A DNA stretch of 64,000 nucleotides from Verrucomicrobiota bacterium (lineage in GTDB: Bacteria > Verrucomicrobiota > Verrucomicrobiia > JADLBR01). Positions 4,326-36,029 of the stretch are shown here, in pieces (within the stretch, counting starts at the first letter, position 1; each line of letters starts with the position of its first letter). The stretch covers positions 1-64,000 of the forward strand of contig JAKQKQ010000154.1 of assembly GCA_029560585.1 (NCBI GenBank), in the 5' to 3' direction. The position numbers were made by a program, and so were the translations under genes. The notes under the pieces were generated by a model. The model made no database searches. It was not told the origin of the DNA and saw nothing but the letters and a program-made list of their open reading frames with translations.

Positions 4326-6539
4326 TCATTTCGTCGATCTGTAGCTGCGGATCATCGCCTCACACATGTGCACGAAGTTGGTGTTGCCCTCGGCCTCCGC
4401 CTGTTTCCGCAGCTCCTCCCACGCGGCGATCCCCCGCCCTTCGGGTTTGGCACGTGTCGGGACGGCGCCCGATCGGAATTTGTGGAAGGCCTTGTCTGTC
4501 GCGAAGCTTTGGCGGCCCTGCGGTGCTCTCGGGCCGAGGACCGGAGGGCGGCCACGGAAGGGCCCCGCAAAGCTGATCGGGCTTCTCACCATCCGGAACA
4601 GGGCCAGGCAACTGCTCAAGCCGACGAGTCGGTCGAAGTAATCGATGAACTTGCGTGCGCTGTTGGCCGCCACCACGCCCTGCTTGGCCTGGTAACAGAA
4701 GGCCAGCGAAACGAACCTGTCCCTGGCGCTCTTGACGTGCGATTGGAGACGAAACCAGTCGCAGTCCACCAACATGTCCTGGTTGTCCCAAGGCAGGACG
4801 GGGCCGTGGATCACGACCTCGTGGGTGAAGGCCAGCGGAAACCTAATCTGAAAGGGGTGTCGGCGCGGCGGGGTGGTCGGGGGGCACGCCAGGAACCTGT
4901 TGAGCCAGCGGGCGCAGTAGCGGAATACCTTCAGGTTGTTCTCCCTGTCCGTTGACACACCGGAGCACAGGAATCGGCCCTCCACCATGACGTGGTTATG
5001 GTCCCGATCATCCTCCACCCGCAGCGGGGTCTTTGGGTCCCTCTCGACCTCCCTGAAGAAACTCTGCAGCTCCCGCGCCTCACTTTCGGCAAACTGGTCC
5101 CGGCCGATGCGGAGCAAGGTCGCCCGGAGTAGATCGGCCTCCGAGCCGGTCGCCTCGAGGCACATGTCCATGTGGTTTCGCGTTGAAAGCGGGTCGATGT
5201 AGAAATTCTCCCGCAGGTGCCACCGCGACCCGGCCGCGGCCGCGTGGGGGATCGGCATGAGATCCCGTGCCTCCCCGGAGACACACAGCCCGAGCCCGTA
5301 GTCGGGCAGGCACTGGCTGAAGGCATCGCCACCGGCGCCCAGGGCGGTGGCATCGGCGAAGAATCGGTTGCCGTCGAGCACGTAGGTGACGATGGCGTGA
5401 TTGAAACACGACAGGCCCGGCAGGAATTCGGCCACCCCGTGGCGATACTGGCTGCTGACCAGCACGGGTTGGGCCTCCACCCCGAGAGACCGCAGCAACA
5501 CGCATAGGAGGAGTGACTTGTCCTTGCAGTCGCCGTAACGGCGCCTGATGACCTCGCGGGGCGAGGTCGGCAGGATGCCGCCCAGTCCTGTGGTCATGGC
5601 CATGTAGCGGATGTCGTCCTGGACGAATCTCAGGAGCCTGAGGATCCTCCCCGGCAGATCCTCTCCCAACCCCGCCGGGTCCACCTCATCGGCGCTCACA
5701 GGGTCCGGGGCGACTGCAGTCCAATTCTCGTCGAGCAGTCGGGCGACCTCCGCCCAGTCCGAGTAGGCGGACAGGTTGGCGATCGGGAGGACGGGCTGCC
5801 AGGGGGGGACGCCATCCTCGGACTGGAGTTTCTCGTGGCGCGAGCCGGACCAAACGAAGACGAACTCGCCCTCGGACTCCGACGCCTCGTATGGGGTCGC
5901 ATTCTCGCCGATTGTCTTGAAATAAGGCAACGGCCCCTTGGGAATGCGCACCGTGACATACCACGCGGCGGTCCGGAGTGGCCGGTCCACGGCGAAGGCT
6001 ATCTCCGATTTTTCGCCGGGCAGCCGGTTGTGCGTTCTTCTGGAAAAGGAGACATCCAGGGCGTCGCCGGACCTGACGTCATCGAGGATCAGGACCGCGG
6101 ATACCCTTCCGTGGATGATTTGGGACTCGAGCGCGTCCTCGCGCTGGCGGAACAGGAAACGCCCGGGGTCCACGTAGCTCCGAGAGACCCCTTGGCGCCA
6201 GAGGCGCACGTCGTGGACGATCAGCGCTTCTTTCTCCGGATCGAAATCGATGACAACATGGGAGAGATTTTGGACGGCATCGGCGGTATTGAGCCGTTCG
6301 ACATTCCGGGTGAAGGTGACCGCTCGGTCCGGGGCGTGCACGGTATCGGAGAGGAGGATGTCGACGTGGCTGTCGGAATCTTGAGGGAAATCCCAGGGGA
6401 TCTCTCGCTCGGACACCCAGTCTGGAGCCGGGCCGATGGAAAAAGAGTCGCTCCAGTTGGCGTGAGGGGTGGTTGGCAGCGCTGGGGTCTTGCCGGCGTC
6501 GGGAATCGCAGGCTCCATGTCGGGCACGCGGTCGATCAT
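4326..6539 (-). CDS. DUF3857/transglutaminase-like protein
   Basis: 737 aa with no signal peptide. Residues ~60-250 form a beta-rich DUF3857-like region (AVTFTRNVERLNTADAVQNLS). A transglutaminase-like core follows at ~300-400 with RRRYGDCKDKSLLLCVLLRSLG. The papain-like triad is visible as Cys338 (GDCKDK), His381 (FNHAIV) and Asp396 (FADAT), so the fold looks catalytically intact. Families of this architecture are widespread in Bacteroidota and PVC bacteria; most lack a defined substrate, and cross-linking or proteolysis of peptides is the usual suggestion. The last ~120 residues are Arg/Pro-rich and not recognised. TIR elements border the gene on both sides. Confidence 0.75.
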   Translation of the reverse strand: MIDRVPDMEPAIPDAGKTPALPTTPHANWSDSFSIGPAPDWVSEREIPWDFPQDSDSHVDILLSDTVHAPDRAVTFTRNVERLNTADAVQNLSHVVIDFDPEKEALIVHDVRLWRQGVSRSYVDPGRFLFRQREDALESQIIHGRVSAVLILDDVRSGDALDVSFSRRTHNRLPGEKSEIAFAVDRPLRTAAWYVTVRIPKGPLPYFKTIGENATPYEASESEGEFVFVWSGSRHEKLQSEDGVPPWQPVLPIANLSAYSDWAEVARLLDENWTAVAPDPVSADEVDPAGLGEDLPGRILRLLRFVQDDIRYMAMTTGLGGILPTSPREVIRRRYGDCKDKSLLLCVLLRSLGVEAQPVLVSSQYRHGVAEFLPGLSCFNHAIVTYVLDGNRFFADATALGAGGDAFSQCLPDYGLGLCVSGEARDLMPIPHAAAAGSRWHLRENFYIDPLSTRNHMDMCLEATGSEADLLRATLLRIGRDQFAESEARELQSFFREVERDPKTPLRVEDDRDHNHVMVEGRFLCSGVSTDRENNLKVFRYCARWLNRFLACPPTTPPRRHPFQIRFPLAFTHEVVIHGPVLPWDNQDMLVDCDWFRLQSHVKSARDRFVSLAFCYQAKQGVVAANSARKFIDYFDRLVGLSSCLALFRMVRSPISFAGPFRGRPPVLGPRAPQGRQSFATDKAFHKFRSGAVPTRAKPEGRGIAAWEELRKQAEAEGNTNFVHMCEAMIRSYRSTK

Positions 6540-6653
6540 GTGCAGTCATCTGGAATTCCGCAAGAATCGGGTAGGGTGCGCCAAGACGCGCAGGCATCGC
6601 CAGACCCGGAGACCGGGCAGCGACCGGGGTCTCGCATGAACATTCTGCATCAT

Positions 6654-6755
6654 GGGTCACATCGAAACATCCAAGAGATCGGATCGCGCCGCGGTCGCGT
6701 GTTTCGATTCTGACCGGTCACATTTTTCAGAATGTCGAATGTCGAGATGTGACCC
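6654..6755. repeat. TIR element, copy 3 of 3, with partial duplication to 6800
   Basis: The left end is GGGTCACATCGAAACAT and the right end GTCGAGATGTGACCC. The right flank (gaatgtcgagatgtgaccct, then cttgtgggg) is repeated once more at about 6769-6797, so the outer 31 bp are duplicated in tandem. Confidence 0.75.
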
Positions 6756-6810
6756 TCTTGTGGGGCGAGAATGTCGAGATGTGACCCTCTTGTGGGGCAG
6801 AAAATGGGGT

Positions 6811-6888
6811 GTAGGAGCGCGCTTGCGCGCGATTCGAATCGCCTGCAAGCAGGCTCCCACGATTCGATGTCTGAATTTTCGAGTCAGA
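6811..6888. repeat. REP/REPIN-like doublet A
   Basis: GTAGGAGCGCGCTTGCGCGC followed within a few bases by the inverted mate ATCGCCTGCAAGCAGGCTCC, then the conserved tail TGAATTTTCGAGTCAG. Same layout at 14100-14176 and 14416-14492. The head strongly resembles gammaproteobacterial REP sequences; the likeness is by eye. Confidence 0.75.
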
Positions 6889-6892
6889 CATG

Positions 6893-6927
6893 ATGCCCGC
6901 GCGGCGGGCACCACCGGGGAGGAAAAT
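6893..6927. repeat. GC-rich hairpin repeat (second copy 14374-14410)
   Basis: ATGCCCGCGCGGCGGGCACC with a perfect GCCCGC/GCGGGC stem, followed by ACCGGGGAGGAAAAT. The copy at 14374-14410 has a compensatory change (GCCCCG/CGGGGC), which argues that the stem is maintained. Confidence 0.65.
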
Positions 6928-7220
6928 CAGTGGCGAAGCCGATCGCCAGAGGCGATTTTACGAACATTCCGGCTTCGGCCCCCGCTCGGCCGCCGCCGAA
7001 GGGCGCAAGCCCTTCGCTGCCGATCGATACACCCTCTTTTCGAGTCAGCCCACTGATTTCGGTGGTTTCAGCGCAGCCGCGGATATGGACCGCGGAGTCC
7101 TTCCTGCCTTTCTGAGTTCCACATTCAAGCCCGCACAAACCCGGCTTTCGAGACCCGGTGTTTCGCATCCTGAATCCGGAACTCAGGAGATCAGGAGAGC
7201 CCTCGCCAAAAAGCGAGCGC

Positions 7221-7258
7221 ACACAGATTCGTGTTCATTCGTGCCCATTCGTGGTTAA
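7221..7258. repeat. TTCGTG-type palindromic repeat, copy 1
   Basis: ATTCGTGTTCATTCGTGCCC followed by ATTCGTGGTTAAC. It belongs to a dispersed family also found at 8867-8930, 16064-16145, 16725-16765 and 47808-47886. Confidence 0.7.
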
Positions 7259-7335
7259 CAGGGTTGGACTCGTGGCCTCGGTGTTCTCGCGTGCGGGGGG
7301 TTGAGAATTGGGGGCGGAGGCCGCAGCATGGGGCC

Positions 7336-8820
7336 ATGACCGCCAAACGGATTCTCGCCGCGGCGCTGCTTGCGGCGCCGGCTGTTCTCTCGGTTGGCGC
7401 CACTCCGGTCTCGACGCCCACGCGCCCGAACATCGTCTTTATTCTGGCGGACGATTTGGGCTGGGCCGATCTGCCCATGTATGGCAACCGGTTCAACGAG
7501 GCGCCGAACCTGACCCGCCTGGCCGAGGAAGGGATTCGCTTCACCGATGCCTATGCGGCCGCCCCCGTCTGTTCCCCGACGCGCGCGAGCATCATGTCGG
7601 GTCAGTATCCGGCACGAGTCGGTGTCTTTGAATGGATCCCGGGCCATTGGAGGCCGTATGAGAAAGTCACGGTTCCCAGCAATCGGACGCAGTATCTGCC
7701 CACCGAGGTCGTGACGATCGCCGAGGCGCTGAAGGCGGCGGGCTATGCGACGGCGTTCTTTGGGAAATGGCATCTCGGCTATCAGAAGGATCACCATCCC
7801 TCCAGGCAGGGTTTTGATGAGGCGAACGTCGCCCAGGGCTATTACAACGTGCGATTCGATCCGCCGCGGAACGATTCCGCCGATAAGATCATGGCCGAGC
7901 GGTTGGCCGACTTCGGCATTGATTTCATCGACCGCAACAAGGCGAGGCCATTTTTCCTGTTTCTGTCGCATTGGGACGTGCATGTGCAATTCGATGCCGA
8001 ACAGGTGCGGATCGACAAGTTCCTGAAGAAGTCCGCCGTCGCGGGATATCCCTGCCACGCGATCTATGCGGCGATGATAGAGCAATTGGATCATAGCGTG
8101 GGGCGCGTGGTGGATAAACTGGATGCCCTGGGGCTGCGGGATAACACGCTGGTGGTCTTCTTTTCTGACAACGGAGGGCAGATCAGCAACGACCGCTATC
8201 CCGGGGTCCAGGAGGCGAAGATGCCGGTGGCGGTGCCCTCCAGACAGGGGATCTATCGCGGTAAACCGCTGGCCTATATCGCGACCTCGAACGCGCCGCT
8301 GCGGGGAGAGAAGGGCATGCTCTATGAGGGCGGCATCCGCGAGCCCCTGATCATGAACTGGCCCGGTCGCATCAAGCCGGGAAACCTCTGCCAGACGCCC
8401 GTGACCAGCGTGGATTTCTATCCGACGTTTCTGGAACTGGCGGACGCGAAAAAACCGGAAGGCCAGGTGCTGGATGGGAAGTCGATTCTACCCGAGATGC
8501 TCAACGGCCAAGGCGCCCCGGACCGGGCGCTCTATTGGCACTATCCGGTCTACCACCATCATGTCCCCGCCGCAGCTATCCGGAAGGAGGCATGGAAACT
8601 TGTGCAGAACTTGGTCTCGGGAGACCTCGAGCTCTATCAACTTACGACCGACATCGGCGAGACGACTGACCTGTCGGGGGTCTTCCCCGAGAAGGCGAAC
8701 GAGCTCCATGGGTTGCTGAAACAATGGCAGGCGGAAGTGAAGGCGGAGTTTCCCCAGCCGAACCCGGCATTCGATGAGAAGCGACGATTCGAATGGGACA
8801 GGCATCCCCGGCCGAAATAA
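7336..8820 (+). CDS. exported sulfatase (arylsulfatase family)
   Basis: 494 aa from the ATG at 7336. That start is chosen because MTAKRILAAALLAAPAVLSVGA is a signal peptide and the upstream in-frame sequence is repeat DNA. The catalytic core is complete: Asp39-Asp40 (ADDLGWAD), Cys79 in C-S-P-T-R, which a formylglycine-generating enzyme would convert to formylglycine, Lys144/His146 (FGKWHLG), His212 (SHWDVH) and Asp278-Asn279 (FSDNG) for calcium binding. Sulfatases of this type remove sulfate esters from glycans in the periplasm. The gene starts a plus-strand run with a Gfo/Idh oxidoreductase and a ThuA protein, which suggests a sulfated sugar substrate. No maturation enzyme gene is in the window. 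Confidence 0.93.
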   Translation: MTAKRILAAALLAAPAVLSVGATPVSTPTRPNIVFILADDLGWADLPMYGNRFNEAPNLTRLAEEGIRFTDAYAAAPVCSPTRASIMSGQYPARVGVFEWIPGHWRPYEKVTVPSNRTQYLPTEVVTIAEALKAAGYATAFFGKWHLGYQKDHHPSRQGFDEANVAQGYYNVRFDPPRNDSADKIMAERLADFGIDFIDRNKARPFFLFLSHWDVHVQFDAEQVRIDKFLKKSAVAGYPCHAIYAAMIEQLDHSVGRVVDKLDALGLRDNTLVVFFSDNGGQISNDRYPGVQEAKMPVAVPSRQGIYRGKPLAYIATSNAPLRGEKGMLYEGGIREPLIMNWPGRIKPGNLCQTPVTSVDFYPTFLELADAKKPEGQVLDGKSILPEMLNGQGAPDRALYWHYPVYHHHVPAAAIRKEAWKLVQNLVSGDLELYQLTTDIGETTDLSGVFPEKANELHGLLKQWQAEVKAEFPQPNPAFDEKRRFEWDRHPRPK

Positions 8821-24912: not shown

Positions 24913-25351
24913 GCGTTCTAAACGGGATGGCCTGGGGCTCCGGTGGACCGGGTGGCAGTGGCTTTGATTTGTATGGTGTCCTGGTTCGAAAGGGCACGTG
25001 GCCGGAGGGGTTAGCCGCAGAGGGTGCCGATGTGCCCAGATCGCAAACCGTTGGGAATACGTGAACTCCAGTGGTCCGACCCCAAGTGCGGCGATTTCGG
25101 TGTCTGGGGCAGGCCTGATGTTTGCAGACGGTTCGTGTAAAACGCCGCACCTGAGCAGCCTTGCGTGCGAGCGTCGTCCGATTAGCCGGATGAATGCTGA
25201 ATACACGACCGAGACTGTCTCAAGACAGGCGACGGAATTCGATGGGTGCCCCAAAAACGGACTTTTTTTGTTGACGGTAGTTCCTATTATCTACATAGAC
25301 CCGATTTGATTCGCGTAAGAAATCGAAATAGTCGATTTGGATTCGTGGCAT
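24913..25351. other. intergenic region, no feature recognised until its AT-rich end
   Basis: The first ~340 bases show nothing recognisable. The last ~90 bases turn AT-rich and contain a promoter-like patch (see 25271-25297). Confidence 0.5.
25271..25297 (+). promoter_or_regulatory. candidate promoter for the autotransporter gene
   Basis: TTGACG at 25271-25276 and TACATA at 25292-25297 with a short 15-base spacer, in the most AT-rich part of the gap, 54 bases before the start codon. Weak match. Confidence 0.3.
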
Positions 25352-27109
25352 ATGAGCAAGATCAGAGTTTTGTCGTGGGTGGCGGGTGTGGTGGCGCTGA
25401 GCAATGCCGCCAGTGGCCAGGTCACGGTACTGACATTTGAAGGACTAAAGGACTTGGAGTCCATCGGAGAGTACTACAACGGCGGGTTTGGCGGCAGCGG
25501 CTCGGGTCCTGGACCGGACTACAATATCAGTTTCAGTTCGGACGCTCTTGCGATCATTGATAGCGATGCGGGCGGGACTGGAAACTTTGGTGGCGAGCCC
25601 TCGCCGAGCACCATCGCGTTCTTCCTGACGGGGACGGCGATCATGAACGTGCCGGCTGGCTTCGACACCGGATTCTCGTTCTATTACAGCGCTGTCAATA
25701 ACCCCGGCTACGTCAACGTCTATTCCGGCCCGAACGGAACGGGCACTCTCCTCACGAGCCTGCTGTTGCCCATCACCGCATCCGATGGCGGCGATCCGAC
25801 TGGGAACTTCAGTCCCCTGTTTGCGCTCGGCGTCCAGTTCAACGGGATCGCGCAGTCGGTCGATTTCGGTGGCACCGTGAACCAGATTGGTTTTGACAAC
25901 ATCACCCTGGGATCGGCCACCCCGGTATTTCTGGATTTTGTAGCGATCCTGGTCGACCTCCGGGCGATCGATTCGGCGATAACACGCGGGCTACCGATGG
26001 CGATGGCGCAGCGGGAGCTGGCCGTGGGCATGGCCAAGACGGCGACCCGCGACCTGAACGGACGGCTCTATCGGCTGCGCGCCAACGCCGGCCGGGAACC
26101 GGTGGGGCTCACATGGAACATCGCTGCGGCAGCCCAGAACATGGCGGGGACCAGGGACTTTGACCCCAAGGCGGTGCAGGACAGCAAGGTGGTGGTCGAC
26201 AATAAGGCCGTCGTGCAGCCCGATACCGCGCCGCTGAATTCGGACCGCTGGAGCGTTTTCGCCGCCGGTGATTTTCGCAACATCGAGACCGACCAGCAGG
26301 GCGATCTGGAGGGATTTGATTCCGACACCTTCGGGGCCACCGTCGGCATCGAGTTCCGCGCCACCGACCATCTCGTCTTTGGTCTGGGCTCGGCCTACCT
26401 GGAGAACCAGACCCACATCAGCGGCGGGGTGGGCGACGCGGATCTGTGCGGTCACACGATCTCGCCCTACGTGTCGTTCGTCCAGGGCAGCTTCTATGCC
26501 GATCTCCTCTACAACTTCGCTCTCTTCGATCACGACATCCGGCGCGAGACGGGCTATGAGGGAACGGCGTACGGGGATCCGGAGAGCTACAACCACAGTG
26601 TCGAGTTCAACATGGGCTACAACTTCGTCTTCGACAGGCTGGTGACCGGACCTTTCGTGGCCGTCGAGTACCTCAACGGCGAACTGGAGGGCTACACGGA
26701 GACGGAAGGCGGCGAGGCCAACCTCGTGGTGGACGCGCAAACCTACGAATCCCTGGTGACCCGCCTGGGCTGGCAGGCCTCCTATCACTTCAACACCCCC
26801 CTCGGGGCGGTGGTCCCGCAGGTCCGCATCGGCTGGGAGCGGGAGAATCTCGACGACAGCGAAGACGTGACCGTCGCCCTGGAGCATTCGCCCGTGACGA
26901 TCTACACCGGCAACGGCGTCAGCACCGGTCCCGGTTTCCGCACCTCGGCGCCCACCGCAGGTTTCCAGGAGGACTACATGTGCGTGGGTGCCGGCGTGAT
27001 GGTCGGCATCACCGACTCAGTCAGGCTGCTTCTCGACTACGAGGGGCAGTTTTTCCGTGAGAACTACAACTCACACATAGCTTCGGTCAGGCTCTCGATG
27101 GCCTTTTGA
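25352..27109 (+). CDS. autotransporter with a PEP-CTERM-like lectin passenger
   Basis: 585 aa from the ATG at 25352 (signal peptide KIRVLSWVAGVVALSNAASG). Residues ~25-200 form a beta-sandwich-like passenger: TVLTFEGLKDLESIGEYYNGGFGGSG ... GFDTGFSFYYSA ... NQIGFDNITLGSATP. The F-D-N-I-T-x-G strand followed by P normally precedes the PEP-CTERM anchor, but here no anchor follows. Instead, residues ~300-585 are an autotransporter beta-barrel (SVFAAGDFRNIET, ATVGIEFRATDHLVFGLGSAY, alternating aromatic strands), ending in the terminal Phe of SMAF needed for outer-membrane assembly. It implies a diderm envelope and self-secretion of the passenger. Confidence 0.82.
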   Translation: MSKIRVLSWVAGVVALSNAASGQVTVLTFEGLKDLESIGEYYNGGFGGSGSGPGPDYNISFSSDALAIIDSDAGGTGNFGGEPSPSTIAFFLTGTAIMNVPAGFDTGFSFYYSAVNNPGYVNVYSGPNGTGTLLTSLLLPITASDGGDPTGNFSPLFALGVQFNGIAQSVDFGGTVNQIGFDNITLGSATPVFLDFVAILVDLRAIDSAITRGLPMAMAQRELAVGMAKTATRDLNGRLYRLRANAGREPVGLTWNIAAAAQNMAGTRDFDPKAVQDSKVVVDNKAVVQPDTAPLNSDRWSVFAAGDFRNIETDQQGDLEGFDSDTFGATVGIEFRATDHLVFGLGSAYLENQTHISGGVGDADLCGHTISPYVSFVQGSFYADLLYNFALFDHDIRRETGYEGTAYGDPESYNHSVEFNMGYNFVFDRLVTGPFVAVEYLNGELEGYTETEGGEANLVVDAQTYESLVTRLGWQASYHFNTPLGAVVPQVRIGWERENLDDSEDVTVALEHSPVTIYTGNGVSTGPGFRTSAPTAGFQEDYMCVGAGVMVGITDSVRLLLDYEGQFFRENYNSHIASVRLSMAF

Positions 27110-27210: not shown

Positions 27211-28572
27211 TTATCCGTCATCCGACGCCAGAGGCCGATCTGTCACGACATAGACCTGGCTCCAGCCATCTCGGTCGCTGGTAAAGACGACGCGGCGGCC
27301 GTCGGGCGAAAATGATGGGTGGGGATGGCTCCATTGCGGGCCGTAGATGGATGAGGGGTCGTCGGGTTGGGGCGGGCGATCCAGTTCGGGCCGGTCGCCG
27401 CGAATGATGCTGGTATCGATGCCGGCTCCCTGGGCGGGGACGGAGAGCGCCCACTGCGTGCCGCGGTTGGTGGCGCGCGGCCAGCATAGCGCGCGCCGCT
27501 GCCCGGTGCGCGCACCGACCAGCTGTAGCCCGATGTCGGGATGGTTCGTATCGGCCACAATCCTGTCGCCGGCGCGGTCCCCACAGGCGTGCCACGCATT
27601 GAACGCCGCGATGGTGCGCGCGCGCGACCCGTCCCGGCTGATGGCTCGCAGTGCGTGCGGCCAGTGCGTGAAGATGATCTCGCTCCCGTCGCCAAGCCAA
27701 CTCTCATGGACGATCCACTCGCCGGGCCTTTGCGCGTAGAGATTCCGGTCCTCGGTGCCGTCGGAGCGGATTGTCCAGATGCGCGCGCCGGGGGTGCCGG
27801 AGTATTCGAGGATGCTGTCGTCGGCCGGGCAGAACTGCACGTGGCCGACCTCGGCCTTTTCGACTAGGAAGTGCGCTTGGCCCGACGCGGGCTCGACGAG
27901 CGCGAGCCGGCACGATCCCTTGAATCGGACGCCTAGGGCCAGGCGCGAGCCGGCGGGGTTGAGCGAGCAGTTACCGAGCCTCGCGCCATCAAATTTCGCC
28001 ACCACGCGCTCGCGAAGCGTCTCGCGATCCAGCTCGACTACGCAGTCTCTTGCGGAGAAGTAGATCTTGCGGCCGTCGCGCGTGGCGGCGGGCGAGAATG
28101 GATTGGTGTCGGTCCGGGCCGTCAGTTGGGTGATGGTGCCGTCGGTCTCTGCGGCGGCAAAAATGTTGGGGTGGCCGGTGCGGTAGCTGATGAAGTACAG
28201 CTCGCGCCCGTCATCTGGCCACGAGGGATTCGTGAAATAGAAATGGTGATGCATCGCCGTCGCGGCGGTGATCTGCCAGACGTCCGCGCCGGTCTTCTCG
28301 TCGCGCAACAACTGCCGCTCGGAGGGGATTCGCCGACCGGCCGCAGAGGGATCGGTGCCACGCACCAGCAGGTTGCCGCCGGCCAGCACCGCCGCCGTGA
28401 GGAATCTGCGCCGCGTGGTGGGATGCGCGATTGACGGCTCCGTCCCGTGGCGGGCGCGGCAGGAATCCGTTGTCCGCTCGCGTCTGATGTCGGCGAGCTT
28501 ATCCTCCGGCGCCGCGAGGGTGTCAAGCGTAGGCGCCGAATGCAGGCTGAGGAATCCAATGCTGCGGGGCAT
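27211..28572 (-). CDS. exported PL22-type oligogalacturonate lyase-like propeller
   Basis: 453 aa. A Tat-like signal is internal (HPTTRRRFLTAAVLAGGNLLVRG, ~50-72), so the true start could be later than the ATG at 28572. The rest is a seven-bladed TolB-like propeller (PSWPDDGRELYFISYRTG, PHPSFSPDGRRVVFTSDRDGWSQVYVV). Near the end, Gln413-x-x-His416-x-His418 (QWSHPH) matches the Q-x-x-H-x-H manganese site of characterised PL22 lyases. His289 (VHESW) and His328 (AWHACG) are candidates for the catalytic and fourth-ligand histidines. PL22 enzymes split unsaturated digalacturonate by beta-elimination. It is probably co-transcribed with the gene at 28627-31677, 54 bases upstream. Confidence 0.75.
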   Translation of the reverse strand: MPRSIGFLSLHSAPTLDTLAAPEDKLADIRRERTTDSCRARHGTEPSIAHPTTRRRFLTAAVLAGGNLLVRGTDPSAAGRRIPSERQLLRDEKTGADVWQITAATAMHHHFYFTNPSWPDDGRELYFISYRTGHPNIFAAAETDGTITQLTARTDTNPFSPAATRDGRKIYFSARDCVVELDRETLRERVVAKFDGARLGNCSLNPAGSRLALGVRFKGSCRLALVEPASGQAHFLVEKAEVGHVQFCPADDSILEYSGTPGARIWTIRSDGTEDRNLYAQRPGEWIVHESWLGDGSEIIFTHWPHALRAISRDGSRARTIAAFNAWHACGDRAGDRIVADTNHPDIGLQLVGARTGQRRALCWPRATNRGTQWALSVPAQGAGIDTSIIRGDRPELDRPPQPDDPSSIYGPQWSHPHPSFSPDGRRVVFTSDRDGWSQVYVVTDRPLASDDG

Positions 28573-28626
28573 CTCACCGCAGAGGACATGGCGCGCACGG
28601 GGCGTGGGCGGTCCCCGGGATCCGCG

Positions 28627-31600
28627 TCATTCGGACATCGGCTGCAGGGCGATGGATGTCTTTATCAGGTAGCTGCACGTGCAGCGATCGGTGGCGTCGG
28701 GCATGAGCAGGAGTCCTCCGGCAGGGACCGCGTTGATCCAGCAACCTGGGCGAATGCCGCCAAAGCTCCGGGTATTCTGGGGTTGCTCCAGGTCCACGTA
28801 ACCGAGGGTGGCCGAACGAAACGCCATGAGGTGGCGCGAGGCGCTCGGTATCCCGCAGCCGTAGGATCTTGGAAAGGCAAGGCCCTGGGCCTGGCCGGTC
28901 ACGATGTCCCAACCGCGTGATTGGAATAGGACCGTCCGGCCGTGAAGCACGGGCCGCGTGCTGTAGGATGCCTTGATGTCCCAGCGACGTTGGCCGGTGG
29001 CGATATCGAATGCGGCCATCCGGCCGCCGATTTCGGACACCAGCTTGAATTTGGAATCCTGGAAACACATCAGGAGCGTCTTGTATTCCTCGCTCAGGGC
29101 CAGCAGCGTCCCGAATATCTCCTCTGTGGATTCCCACGCGACACGCCCCGTTGCGAGGTCGAGGGCAATCAGCCGCCCATCGGGGTGGACGAAACCGGGA
29201 TCTGGCACGGACCGTTTCTTTTCCTTCGTGCGGTCGGCGAGGGCGATCGGCCGATCGATGACGTACGCGCGCCCGCCGCCGATGGCGATCGCATTGTGCC
29301 GGATCGAGTTTTGTGGCCGCCAGGTCCATTTCACCTCGCCCGTTACCGCGTCGATGGCGAACAAGAGGCTGGACTCGGTCCACTGCTCTTGCATGTCGCC
29401 GGGGCGGTAGCGATACGTCACGACGTGGCCCGTGTCTGCAAGGCTGCCTATGATCGTGTCGCCCGCGCACGCGATCATGCCCCACTCGCCGGGTCGCCCA
29501 TCCGGGTGGGGCGGCGCCGATAGCCTGCCGAGGAGCTTTCCGGTTTCAGGGTCGAGCCGGAGGCACTGTTTTTCCGTCCGGATAAACAGGCCGCGTTCCC
29601 CGACGCAGATGTTGCTGCCGGTGCCAGAGACCCCCATCAGGTGCTCGCCATCATAAGGCTGCAAGATCTCGGGCAGCGGATACTCCCACAGGGGCCTGCC
29701 GTTGTACGCGTCGACGCATCGCAGCGCATTCAGGCCCTCGATGAACAGCAGGCCCCTGTAAAAGAGCGGGGCGGGACCGCGCCCATGACGGCTCGGCATG
29801 GTGAACTCGAGGTCGTTGAACCAGCAGATGCCAAGCGGCCCCCGCAGGAGCGAATCACTCGAGCAACACGTGTTTGCCGCATCGCAGTACTGGTGGGTCC
29901 AGGCCCCGGCGCCCGCCAGATCCCCGCGCGTCGCAGTTTGCATCAGGCCCGGCTTTCCGATGCACGACTTGCCGCCAAACGGCCGCAGCACCCGGTTGAT
30001 GAGTTCCGAGGAGACGACGTCGGCAGCCCCGTCGACCGAGCGGCCCGCGACGACGAGGTTCGCAAAATAGCTGGGCAGATTCTGGCAGGGCGGCACGGCC
30101 AAGTGGGTCGTGATCCGGGTCCCGAGCAGGCCGGCGGCATCGAGCCTTCTTTGAATGGCGGCGACCTCCCCGGGATCGGGGTTCATCGCGCAGATGTGGA
30201 GCCTCGTCTTCTTTGCGAGCGCGATCGCCAGGGAGCCATCGCCGCATGCGGCGTCAAGACAGTAACCCTCGGTGATCCCTGTTTTTTGGATGATCTCGTC
30301 GGCAGCTGCGTCTGCCGCGGCGGGGGTGGCGGGTGTTGCGGGCGGCGGTGAGATGTTCTTGGGCGCGGCCGCGTGGCTGCCATCAAAGCACTGGATTGCG
30401 CCGGTTGCGGTGCTGACGAAGAGGCGCCCGTTTGACGCCGCCAGCCCGACCGCTTCGCCGTCGGTCTTCTTTGTGAGAAGGATCTGGCGCGAGGGGATAT
30501 CGGCGACGGCTATCCCGCCCCCGCCACCCACGACGGCCTTGTCGCCCGCGACGATCAGGCAGGATGGCGGGCTGATTGGGTTCGCCATGCGCCAGATTGG
30601 TGTGTTGAGGACCCTTTGGCCGATCATCTTTTTCGTCTTGGGGTCCGCGACCTTTCGCTCGCGCCATGGGTTTGCGCGGTCGATGGCGGCGATCTCATTC
30701 GTCGTGGCAAGGAGCAGCGAGTCGGGCGCGACCGCCATGACCATCGCGTTGGAACCCGTGAGGCAGGCCTGTTTGCCGGTCGCGAGATCGAACGCGCATG
30801 CGCCATTGAAGAACTGCGAGTCGGTGGCCACGATCCCGGAACCCCCGACCTTCCCGAACGTCTGAAGGTGGAAGAATAGGAACTTCCCATCGGCGCGGCT
30901 AAAGGCCGCTGGCACTCCCCGCCCCGTTGGCACCAGCAGGCGATCGCCGACGACAACCAGGTCGCCCTGTGCCGATACGCCGCTCTGGGCCACGGCGCCC
31001 GGATGCGGCTGGGGCATCAGCATGCCCGCCGCGGTGGTGTTGCGCCAGATCACCCGCCCGTCTGCCGCGTCAACGGCATGGATGAAAACGCCCTCGCTCG
31101 GCCAGATTCCGGCGGCCCAGTAGACGATGCCGTCCGCTATGACCGGGCCGCCGCGGGCCGGCCAGCGCGAAATCAGTCGCCCGTTGCCCAGCACCATGCT
31201 GGCGCCGTCGCCCCCGCGGATTCTCCAAAGCATTTTTCCGTCTCGCGTCGCAAGGCAGTAGAGGAAGCCGTCATCGCTGACGACGAAAGCGCGATCGCGA
31301 TAAATGGCGGGCGCGAACCTGACGGGGCCGGCGGCCAGGAAGGACCAGAGCTCTTCGCCCGTCGCGGCGTTTAGAGCCATCACCTTGCCGTCGGCAGAAC
31401 TCCCGAACAGCAGCGTGTCGCCCGCGATCACCGCATGGAATGCGCGGTCAAACGGCATGCGCGTATCTCGCCCGGGCCATGCCGGCTGCGGCGCGTGGCG
31501 GGGCCTGTAGGTCCAGCGCGGCGAAAGATCGGCCGGCAGGGCATCTGCCGTGTATCCGCTGCGAGAGCCATCGGCGCGATACGTTGGCCAATCTGAAGCG

Positions 31601-31677
31601 GCGCCGACATGGGGCGCGGCCGTGAGGAGGGTCAGGGCGATCACCCAACCGAATTTCCGCTGGGTCGAAGTTTTCAT
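28627..31677 (-). CDS. secreted PQQ-type propeller with inserted methyltransferase-like domain
   Basis: 1016 aa from the ATG at 31677, chosen because MKTSTQRKFGWVIALTLLTAAPHVGA is a signal peptide; an ATG nine bases earlier is also possible. Residues ~28-430 and ~600-1005 are PQQ-like beta-propeller blades (GKVMALNAATGEELWSF, GRVIWRN, GRLIALDLATGRVAWES, GQRRWDI). Between them, at ~460-575, sits a Rossmann-type domain with EGYCLDAACGDGSLAIALAKK, the SAM-binding loop of class I methyltransferases, followed by INRVLRPFGG as in C-terminal methyltransferase strands. Quinoprotein dehydrogenase activity is not assured, since PQQ ligands cannot be confirmed. The combination is unusual for a protein that appears exported. 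Confidence 0.78.
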   Translation of the reverse strand: MKTSTQRKFGWVIALTLLTAAPHVGAASDWPTYRADGSRSGYTADALPADLSPRWTYRPRHAPQPAWPGRDTRMPFDRAFHAVIAGDTLLFGSSADGKVMALNAATGEELWSFLAAGPVRFAPAIYRDRAFVVSDDGFLYCLATRDGKMLWRIRGGDGASMVLGNGRLISRWPARGGPVIADGIVYWAAGIWPSEGVFIHAVDAADGRVIWRNTTAAGMLMPQPHPGAVAQSGVSAQGDLVVVGDRLLVPTGRGVPAAFSRADGKFLFFHLQTFGKVGGSGIVATDSQFFNGACAFDLATGKQACLTGSNAMVMAVAPDSLLLATTNEIAAIDRANPWRERKVADPKTKKMIGQRVLNTPIWRMANPISPPSCLIVAGDKAVVGGGGGIAVADIPSRQILLTKKTDGEAVGLAASNGRLFVSTATGAIQCFDGSHAAAPKNISPPPATPATPAAADAAADEIIQKTGITEGYCLDAACGDGSLAIALAKKTRLHICAMNPDPGEVAAIQRRLDAAGLLGTRITTHLAVPPCQNLPSYFANLVVAGRSVDGAADVVSSELINRVLRPFGGKSCIGKPGLMQTATRGDLAGAGAWTHQYCDAANTCCSSDSLLRGPLGICWFNDLEFTMPSRHGRGPAPLFYRGLLFIEGLNALRCVDAYNGRPLWEYPLPEILQPYDGEHLMGVSGTGSNICVGERGLFIRTEKQCLRLDPETGKLLGRLSAPPHPDGRPGEWGMIACAGDTIIGSLADTGHVVTYRYRPGDMQEQWTESSLLFAIDAVTGEVKWTWRPQNSIRHNAIAIGGGRAYVIDRPIALADRTKEKKRSVPDPGFVHPDGRLIALDLATGRVAWESTEEIFGTLLALSEEYKTLLMCFQDSKFKLVSEIGGRMAAFDIATGQRRWDIKASYSTRPVLHGRTVLFQSRGWDIVTGQAQGLAFPRSYGCGIPSASRHLMAFRSATLGYVDLEQPQNTRSFGGIRPGCWINAVPAGGLLLMPDATDRCTCSYLIKTSIALQPMSE

Positions 31678-31891
31678 CGGCCGCATCAGAGCGTGTTGAT
31701 GCGATGGGCGCAGGGCAACGAGAAAATCATCGCCGTGAGGGATCGAGGGGAACGTAGATCGCTCTGCGAACCCTAACCTCCTGCTTGTACTCGGCATTCC
31801 CGTGTGGCAAGGGTAGATAGAGGGTTTGGACGGCGAATCCGACGGAAGAGGGCGCGAGTGTTCGGGCGTTTGCCGATCCATCGCCCCCCGC

Positions 31892-32821: not shown

Positions 32822-33122
32822 CGGCCCGTTGAAAAACCCACACAACAGCCGCGCCGGGTATGGGAGGGACGCCGTCCCCGGCGTCCGCGATTCACCAGCC
32901 GCGCAACGCCCGGGCCAACCCGGCCCGCGAGGCCGCGGGCCCTCCCGGCGGAATCGGGCCCCGCGCGCCATCAGGGGGAATCGCTGACGTCTTTCAACGG
33001 GATGCCAGCGGCGGGACCACGGGCGCCCGTGGGTTCCTGTCACGGCGCTGGGTCTGTGGTGTTACGCTCATGCGGGCGGAGATTCCCTTGACCCGAGATG
33101 GGGCGTCCGACACGGTCTGTCC
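32822..33122. other. short intergenic region with a GGGAGGGACG hairpin
   Basis: The 301 bp hold the repeat at 32862-32890 and otherwise nothing recognisable. Confidence 0.5.
32862..32890. repeat. GGGAGGGACG hairpin repeat (other copy 17162-17191)
   Basis: GGGAGGGACGCCGTCCCCGG then CGTCCGCG; opposite orientation to the copy at 17.16 kb. Confidence 0.55.
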
Positions 33123-36029
33123 ATGTTCCGGAGAATTCGGCTGCGGCCGATTGTGCCGGGGAAGTCCCTGGCGAATGCGTTCGCCCGCAGGATAGTCGCA
33201 AACAGATTTCGATCGAGGGTGTTTGGGGTGCTCTGTTTGTCGGGGTCGGGGACGGTGGTGCCTGGAGCACCGACGCCGATGCCGCAGTGGATTGGCGCTT
33301 CCGCGGCCCCGGCGCCGGGTCAAAATACAATCTTTGCCCGCGGCTTTGAGTTGGGGGGGACGGCCCGCAAGGCGCTGGTGCGGTTGGATTCCGATGATCG
33401 TTACCGGCTCGCCATCAATGGGCATGCAATCAGCGTGGGCGACACGCCATGGGATGCAGAGACCTACGACATCACGCGGCTGCTGGTCCAGGGCACCAAC
33501 ACGCTTTTGGTGACTGCGGGCTCCGACACGCCGCGCCCGGCTAACTGCTGGGTGTGGATGCGCCGATGGCTGGCTGCGCCGGGGCACTTCACGCGGCTGA
33601 GCTTTAAGACACGGGGTGCCCGCGCGGATGAATGGCTCTATGTCGAGGTCGTCGATGCGCGGGGCCATACCTCGGGATTCTACTGCCCGGAGAGAAAACG
33701 GCGGGACCTGCTGCTGGGTCACGGTGGCGCCGCGGTCGAGCATGTCATCGAATTGGGCAAGGAGCCCACGCTCGCACATCGGCAACAGAGCGGCGATCAG
33801 GCCGGGTGCGACTTCACGCAGATCGCCTCGGTCGGCATCCGCATCGACCGCAAGAATGTCCTGGAGAAACCGGCGGGGCAGGTCGAATTTGCGGCCATCA
33901 GGCTACAGGGCGCAACGGAGTCAGACATCGGCGAGGTGGCGGGATGGCGCATCGAACCGGGAACCGGCGAATGGCGTCGCAGCAAACTCGAGCGCGGTGA
34001 CGACGGATACTTCACGCTCCGCTATGATTTCACACCGGCGGATGACCCTCTCATTGCCCTCGATCTCCGTGCTTGGGGCGCGGAAGGCGAACTGGCGCGA
34101 GTGATGAGCGGCCCCGGTTGGCGCGCGAATGGCGCACCGGTGCGGGTCGCGAAGTCGCCGTTGGACTCCGTTTCGTGGACGCGGCTTGCCATCGATGGCC
34201 CCGAAGAAACTCCCGTGCAACCGCTGGCGGCGGGGTTGAGCTGTGATTTTGGGGCCGAGCGTGGCGTCGAAGGGCAGGGTCGGGCGGTCCGGGTCAACGT
34301 GTGGGCCGCAGAGCCCATGCACGAGGCGCGGATTCAGGTCAGGGTAGAGAACTGGGCCGGGGCCGAAGTATTCCGCCAAGAATCGGCTGTCTCGTGGGAT
34401 GGCGCGGTGGGGCATGCGGAGTTCCGCGTGCCGGGTCTCGCCCGGGGACTGTACCGTTTCGATGCCTCGCTGCCAGGAGTGCCGACCCAGAGGCGTCACG
34501 CCGCGCTGGCCGTGCTCGCGCCAGGGCAGACAGGGGTCATGGACGTTTTTGACACGTTGACCCCAATCGCGAAAGGCGGGCCGCTGCGCGGCATCGACCT
34601 GAACTGGAAGGATAGTCCGGCGCTGATGCTCGGCATCCGCGACCAGGGCGTGAACTTTCTGCAGGTTCACCTGAATCCGGCGCAGCTCGACAACGGCGAG
34701 TTGGCCGAACTTCTGGCATTTTGTAAGGCAACCGGACTGCATTTCGCGCTCAACAACGAACATGCCAATTGGGTGGCAAACGCCCCAGATCCATCGGGGC
34801 GCAACCGCTTCGATGCGCCGGGGGGCTGCCACCGCTGGGATATCGAACCCGCGGCCCTTGATGCGGCGACGGCGACGGGATTGTTCGAGGGCGTCGTCTA
34901 TGACGAGGGCGAACACATGCAGCTTTGCCGCAATAAATACGCCCGCTTGCCGGACGACGTCCACCGCAAGCCCTATCTGGTGGAGACCACGGGCATGACG
35001 CTGCCCGCGGCCCACGACACCTTCGTTGCCGCGGCGCGGCAAGTGCGAGCCTACCACCGCCAGCATGGGACCCGGATGATCGTCGAGAGCGTGTTTCCGG
35101 CGCTGTGGCATCCCCTGGCACAGGCCGGGGTCACGCTGTGCCCGAAATTGCTCAAGGAGGATATCTATCCCGTGGTGCTGGCCCTCGCGCTGGGGGCCGC
35201 GCGGCAGTACAACGCCGAGCTGTGGTTCACTCCCGATTTCTGGGCGTGGGATCACTTTCCCGGTCATCCGTTGAAGAACTATGTGGCGGCCTTGCGGCTG
35301 GCCCATGCGGTGGGGGTGGACAACATCTATACGGAGTTCGTCCACGGGCTGTTTCGCGTGCGTGGGAACACTTATGAGTCCACCGATTACGGGGCGGCGC
35401 TGCAGGCGCACATCCGCGAGTACCTGCCCGCCCATCCGCGCGGCTACGACTATCGCGACTACGAGCCCGAGGTCGCCATCATCCGCTTCCCCGACAGCGA
35501 TTGGGGCCAGGCGTCCTGCTATTATTGGAAGACACTCTACGGCGCCGAGGACTTGCCGCCCACGCCGGAGACCGGGGAGTGGATGCAGGTGTTCAGTCTG
35601 CTGACCGCCGGGAAGACCGACCCGCGCGCGGTCAACGCCAACAGCAGCGTCTATCCGCGCTACCAATCGCCCGCGATGATCCCCGCGCCGCCGACGGCGG
35701 TCTACGACCACCTCGCCGGGCCGGACTTGCTGCGCTCCGTCGGCACGATTTTCCTGTGTGGCGTGACCATCTCCGAGCCGACGCTCGCGGCAGTGCGGGG
35801 TCGCGTGAATGAGGGTGCGGTCTGTTTCGCGCCATCCCGATTGTGCCCCGAGCGGGTGAGGCGGCAGGCGAAGGCCCTGCCCGCGCGCATCACCGATGGC
35901 CAAGGCTCGTGGATCGTCCTTGCGGGATTCCGTCCCGAAGATGTCGGGCCGTACCGATCGCTCGTCCCGGCGGCGGGGACCACCTTGCGCCTGAAGTTCA
36001 AGGGGCAGGTGGTCCCTCTCAGCGAATGA
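33123..36029 (+). CDS. large secreted protein: rhamnosidase-N-like sandwich plus unclassified TIM-barrel-like region
   Basis: 968 aa. The start is uncertain: the first ~40 residues are basic, and the export-like stretch FGVLCLSGSGTVVPGA comes after them. Residues ~54-135 (MPQWIGASAAPAPGQNTIFARGFEL ... YRLAINGHAISVGDTPWDAETYDITRLLVQGTNTLLV) match the jelly-roll found at the N-terminus of GH78 rhamnosidases and GH2 enzymes. From ~480 on there is a barrel-like region: GIRDQGVNFLQVHLN, HFALNNEHANWVAN, GVVYDEGEHMQLCRN, MIVESVFPALWHP, LWFTPDFWAWDHFPGHPLKNY. Acidic residues in YDEGEH and IVESVF are candidate catalytic groups. I cannot place it in a known glycosidase family. It is followed after 171 bp by a WbsX/GH99-like gene on the same strand. 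Confidence 0.65.
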   Translation: MFRRIRLRPIVPGKSLANAFARRIVANRFRSRVFGVLCLSGSGTVVPGAPTPMPQWIGASAAPAPGQNTIFARGFELGGTARKALVRLDSDDRYRLAINGHAISVGDTPWDAETYDITRLLVQGTNTLLVTAGSDTPRPANCWVWMRRWLAAPGHFTRLSFKTRGARADEWLYVEVVDARGHTSGFYCPERKRRDLLLGHGGAAVEHVIELGKEPTLAHRQQSGDQAGCDFTQIASVGIRIDRKNVLEKPAGQVEFAAIRLQGATESDIGEVAGWRIEPGTGEWRRSKLERGDDGYFTLRYDFTPADDPLIALDLRAWGAEGELARVMSGPGWRANGAPVRVAKSPLDSVSWTRLAIDGPEETPVQPLAAGLSCDFGAERGVEGQGRAVRVNVWAAEPMHEARIQVRVENWAGAEVFRQESAVSWDGAVGHAEFRVPGLARGLYRFDASLPGVPTQRRHAALAVLAPGQTGVMDVFDTLTPIAKGGPLRGIDLNWKDSPALMLGIRDQGVNFLQVHLNPAQLDNGELAELLAFCKATGLHFALNNEHANWVANAPDPSGRNRFDAPGGCHRWDIEPAALDAATATGLFEGVVYDEGEHMQLCRNKYARLPDDVHRKPYLVETTGMTLPAAHDTFVAAARQVRAYHRQHGTRMIVESVFPALWHPLAQAGVTLCPKLLKEDIYPVVLALALGAARQYNAELWFTPDFWAWDHFPGHPLKNYVAALRLAHAVGVDNIYTEFVHGLFRVRGNTYESTDYGAALQAHIREYLPAHPRGYDYRDYEPEVAIIRFPDSDWGQASCYYWKTLYGAEDLPPTPETGEWMQVFSLLTAGKTDPRAVNANSSVYPRYQSPAMIPAPPTAVYDHLAGPDLLRSVGTIFLCGVTISEPTLAAVRGRVNEGAVCFAPSRLCPERVRRQAKALPARITDGQGSWIVLAGFRPEDVGPYRSLVPAAGTTLRLKFKGQVVPLSE

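Follow-up and report, generated by a model that had tools for sequence, protein, structure and literature searches.

Class I methyltransferases carry a motif I that combines an acid with GxGxG, and the acid that ends strand beta2 binds the ribose of SAM. BamB (YfgL) represents the exported propellers built from PQQ_2-type blades, and the PQQ-dependent alcohol dehydrogenases (type I quinoproteins) are more distant propeller relatives. Pseudoenzymes, a class reviewed in PMC10211241, keep an enzyme fold after loss of the catalytic or cofactor site. A combination of these features, in which a methyltransferase-like domain (M) lies between two propellers (A and B), was not found described in the literature on PQQ-like proteins, methyltransferase fusions, export and permutation, a search with most subscription journals outside its scope, nor did it yield any exported propeller protein that contains a pseudo-methyltransferase; broader reading on pseudoenzymes and domain order supplied background. 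A planctomycete subcellular proteome paper (PMC8567305) mentions neither PQQ nor propellers.

The window, a stretch of 64,000 nucleotides from a Verrucomicrobiota bacterium (assembly GCA_029560585.1, contig JAKQKQ010000154.1), had been predicted from its letters to encode a secreted PQQ-propeller protein with a methyltransferase-like domain spliced into it. The span given for the gene, 28627-31677, proved exact, the coding strand being the minus strand (Table 1), and the loop LDAACGDGSLA corresponds to residues 474-484 of the 1016-aa product. An in-frame ATG at 31686 is a possible alternative start; the one used here is supported by three orthologues (L002, L003 and L008), in which an in-frame stop stands two codons ahead of the equivalent methionine. 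In the alignment of orthologues, the hydrophobic N-terminus stops just ahead of the DW with which propeller A starts.

Table 1. Features of the double-propeller gene, with positions in the window and the evidence for each.
Feature	Position	Strand	Evidence
Whole gene, 1016 aa + stop	28627..31677	(-)	open frame without stops
Putative Sec-type signal peptide, about residues 1-27, MKTSTQRKFGWVIALTLLTAAPHVGA/ASDW	31597..31677	(-)	sequence; hydrophobic N-terminus; own rule-based scan
Propeller A (complete), residues 29-438, BamB/PQQ-like blades	30364..31593	(-)	PQQ_2; AF2; Foldseek
Domain M, residues 453-583 (about), predicted class I methyltransferase fold, shortened	29929..30321	(-)	AF2; Foldseek + profile match to 3dlc
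Motif I, residues 472-481 YCLDAACGDG: D475 retained, first glycine replaced by A477	30235..30264	(-)	alignment; family statistics
N499 where the ribose-binding acid is expected, end of beta2	30181..30183	(-)	alignments
Propeller B, residues 587-1016, starts LAGAGAWTHQY	28630..29919	(-)	PQQ_2 stretches; AF2; HMM comparison of A vs B
Four-cysteine signature C941, C979, C999, C1001 (C..C..CxC), last blades of B	28675..28857	(-)	

Pfam PQQ_2 matches flank M on both sides (E 2.3e-38, three stretches), as expected from the predicted pair of blade sets; these sets belong to two separate propellers, and M lies between them instead of being spliced into one. The AlphaFold2 (AF2) model of the whole protein, built from ten sequences, has a mean pLDDT of 70.8: propeller A, with blades mostly at 70-92, and M are mostly well modelled, whereas the C-terminus is poor, and values below 50 at residues 590-625 and 968-1016 make propeller B and the M-B interface unreliable in the model. 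BamB is the best Foldseek match of this model and shares with the protein its exported PQQ_2-type propeller, but the protein differs from BamB in having two propellers plus M, in having no lipobox and in scoring 64.5 bits against an equivalog cut-off of 285.2. Similarity to the type I quinoproteins is confined to the propeller and distant, the scores lying far below the cut-offs of the PQQ-enzyme models (53 bits against 480 for TIGR03075, 30 against 833 for TIGR03074), and no PqqE match above cut-off was found in the 96%-complete genome of the window, which leaves room for PQQ uptake. PQQ binding is unsupported, if still conceivable, and 'PQQ' serves here as no more than a name.

Domain M is predicted to fold as a class I methyltransferase. 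Modelled alone (residues 446-592), it adopts a Rossmann/methyltransferase fold with a pLDDT of 83.8 and a pTM of 0.82, and its top solved-structure match by fold is the SAM methyltransferase 3dlc (Foldseek E 8.7e-10; 31% identity across 128 aligned columns), which a sequence profile also retrieves (E 2.9e-14), in agreement with the domain type first read from LDAACGDGSLA. The TM score is 0.70 by query and 0.48 by target, the latter being lower because M is shorter than 3dlc. The Pfam match itself is weak (Methyltransf_25, residues 474-525, E 8e-4, under the curated cut-off). With MMP1179 (3dlc), RebM (3bus) and AtmM (6uv6), M shares the Rossmann-like core, the helix before beta1 and the motif I region, and it clearly descends from a real SAM enzyme; unlike these enzymes, it appears to be exported, is fused between two propellers and, in the window subfamily, is shortened after beta5. 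The model contains beta1-beta5 and one further short strand ahead of propeller B, and strands beta6-beta7 with the acceptor-binding region are not evident in it or in the alignment against longer paralogues. These longer paralogues appear to retain the beta6-beta7 region, and the shortening is not family-wide.

A search of PVC genomes recovered the same architecture, as A-M-B or M-B-A, in Verrucomicrobiota and Planctomycetota, where it forms a multi-paralogue family. In one species-genome scan, nine full-length orthologues from other genomes were identified at 33-74% identity, all with the A-M-B order: four from Verrucomicrobia MAGs (67-74%) and five from Planctomycetaceae MAGs, of which four share 45-47% and the fifth 33%. 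These matches point to a verrucomicrobial lineage for the window. A profile of M plus linker matched in at least 26 of the 289 genomes sampled from the window's phylum and in at least 53 of 294 from the phylum of a planctomycete relative, these counts being lower bounds as the best ten first-look candidates per genome were scored. Matching genomes often hold several members, and six are present in the window's genome (C104, the member in the window, C213, C256, C268, C17 and C317); on plasmids, propeller matches were partial only. The window protein shows the features that define the A-M-B form of the family, namely the module order, a signal-like N-terminus and C..C..CxC in B. In L001, the orthologue has a diverged A-M-B paralogue (4830-8048, minus strand) as its neighbour, encoded on the other strand.

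Among 97 non-redundant ORFs, 79 had the order A-M-B and 18 the order M-B-A; the window's genome has examples of each. When HMMs built from A-M-B proteins only were applied to the M-B-A proteins (C317 counted), the first propeller was of type B in 19/19 and the second of type A in 19/19. The two orders cluster on the propeller-A tree far beyond chance (3 changes, where shuffling gives 16 on average). Several independent permutations, suggested by the 2-3 changes under parsimony, were considered and set aside; since the AU test does not reject a single M-B-A clade (p 0.51), one circular permutation is enough to explain this branch. Permuted relatives, running from signal through M and propeller B to propeller A, include L070 (G000 C268), L071 (C17), L184 (C317), L076 and others, and L123 (G270 C9:40000-55000) has a cluster of three M-B-A paralogues on a single contig.

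The protein is predicted from its N-terminus to be exported through a Sec-type signal. By our own rule of thumb, which asks for a basic n-region, a hydrophobic core of ten residues and a small-x-small site, 69 of 78 A-M-B and 17 of 18 M-B-A proteins have a signal-like segment immediately before their first domain; the rate among internal segments is 15%. This is in line with the secretion originally proposed, and most of the A-M-B proteins that fail the rule carry additional sequence ahead of propeller A. In the permuted M-B-A proteins, M comes immediately after the signal, which indicates that M itself is exported. The C317 paralogue (L184, G000 C317:57000-62584) has a lipobox-like LMGC and an M without any glycine loop.

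Several longer paralogues carry C-terminal Malectin and CBM96 domains, and these tails point to glycans and to the cell exterior. Such paralogues share the A-M-B core and the four cysteines with the window protein, and differ from it in their longer C-terminal carbohydrate-binding modules, in a longer M and, in some cases, in an insert that resembles a coiled coil towards the end of A. A long charged insert of this kind precedes the last blade of propeller A in L048, L054 and L060.

In the window protein, D475, G479 and G481 of the SAM site are present, and A477 (giving AxGxG) and N499 are substitutions. Decay of the acid and glycines extends across the family. Of its 97 members, 16 have the motif I acid and 34 a strict GxGxG; among 28 ordinary methyltransferases encoded in the window's genome, the counts are 26 and 18 (Fisher p 9e-14 for the acid, 0.008 for the glycines). 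These p-values are indicative, given that the 97 members are mutually related and that the 28 controls, picked as Pfam matches, favour canonical motifs. D or E occupies the beta2-end position in 69/97 members. GxGxG and the beta2 acid occur together in 29/97, and a near-canonical site in 8/97, and for this reason some members may still bind SAM or a nucleoside. On the propeller-A tree, many branches of which are weakly supported, the state of the loop changed at least 21 times by parsimony. The most conserved columns of M (P566, G471, R/Q509 and G519) are not SAM-contact positions.

M is nevertheless retained. In the window's genome, a profile of the end of B retrieved the six family members and nothing else, each of them with M, and in four planctomycete genomes it matched 28 places, 24 of them with an M profile match; two further places have a strongly decayed M recognised by eye, and the remaining two lie at contig ends. 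M is therefore present in 26/26 untruncated B modules of these four genomes (two judged by eye), and it was kept beside B despite site decay in every complete ORF checked. A kept fold, a lost site and a constant linkage to B form the pattern expected of a pseudo-enzyme.

We consider it fairly probable that the gene encodes an exported scaffold protein with a pseudo-methyltransferase module. Secretion would follow the Sec route, with each propeller folding into a rigid disc. Between the two discs, M would keep the class I methyltransferase fold as the descendant of a SAM enzyme turned pseudo-enzyme, transferring no methyl group, and, joined to propeller B, would serve as a spacer or a docking part. 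In B itself, disulfides (or a metal site) formed by the four invariant cysteines would most likely lock the last blades once outside the cell. Given the malectin and CBM96 modules that several paralogues carry, the whole protein would most likely work at the cell surface, with glycans or other polymers there as its partners. Of the options originally raised for a SAM-type domain outside the cytoplasm, a repurposed Rossmann fold is thus favoured by the recurrent decay of SAM-site residues in a retained M.

Among the alternatives, M could be an extracytoplasmic ligand-binding (sensor) domain in which a small molecule other than SAM, a nucleoside for instance, occupies the old SAM pocket; re-tuning of this pocket in each paralogue would then explain why its residues vary. 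We regard this as unlikely, although about half of the family (54/97) has [GA]xxxG together with the beta2-end acid, the many paralogues differ in exactly the SAM-site loop, and Gly1 of this loop ranks ninth in conservation among the 144 columns of M; against it, the glycine loop is absent altogether from L009, C213, C317, L075 and L188/L189, the motif I acid position is mostly hydrophobic, and the window subfamily is without the strands that usually complete the sheet. Equally tentative is the broader proposal of PVC-wide exported receptors, whose methyltransferase fold would bind a non-SAM ligand through a loop diversified among paralogues, within a compact three-module unit that tolerates circular permutation.

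The most invariant feature found is the C..C..CxC pattern of B, which is more conserved than the SAM loop: C941, C979, C999 and C1001 are present in 71/71 aligned A-M-B members, and the pattern recurs in 18/18 M-B-A members and in 0/79 A propellers. This conservation, and the structural relationship to BamB-like and quinoprotein propellers, would suit an exported redox enzyme centred on a metal or thiol site at these cysteines, in which M would bind a cofactor or position the substrate. The cysteines may make up a metal or redox site; as an account of the whole protein, the redox enzyme is distinctly improbable, since the quinoprotein enzyme models all score below cut-off, the window's genome has no PqqE above cut-off, and disulfides account more simply for four conserved cysteines in a protein that lies outside the cell.

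The derivation of M from SAM methyltransferases and the canonical site retained in a few members would also be expected if M were an active methyltransferase, in a protein that is not exported or that acts before export. This is very unlikely in view of the signal-like N-termini throughout the family, the signal directly before M in the permuted form, the lipobox-like motif in one paralogue, the A477 and N499 substitutions and the recurrent loss of the SAM site. An artefact (frameshift, mis-assembly, or ordinary propeller blades mistaken for a methyltransferase loop), for which the sub-threshold Pfam match might speak, has a negligible probability beside nine full-length orthologues of the same order, an open frame without stops and a confidently modelled methyltransferase fold that Foldseek matched to 3dlc.

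Two phyla with an abundance of surface proteins encode many proteins of A-M-B or M-B-A build, and the evidence here does not support the labels 'PQQ' and 'methyltransferase' that their parts invite. As examples of an enzyme fold that left the cytoplasm and was retained after decay of its cofactor site, these proteins would be clear ones, and the natural permutation of module order and the invariant four-cysteine site provide experimental handles.

None of the window gene's neighbours recurs beside its orthologues, and there are no conserved operon partners among them; as shared neighbours were seen among close relatives only, the context is uninformative on function. Around the gene lie a 1013-aa open frame without a Pfam match at E 0.001 (32988..36026, plus strand), an autotransporter beta-domain protein (25319..27106, plus strand; PF03797, E 2.9e-41) and, directly downstream on the same strand, an oligogalacturonate lyase-like protein (PF14583) with PD40 repeats (27214..28626, minus strand). 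Outside this family, a canonical methyltransferase motif occurs inside a 1339-aa open frame in L160 (G000 C155:62525-62809).
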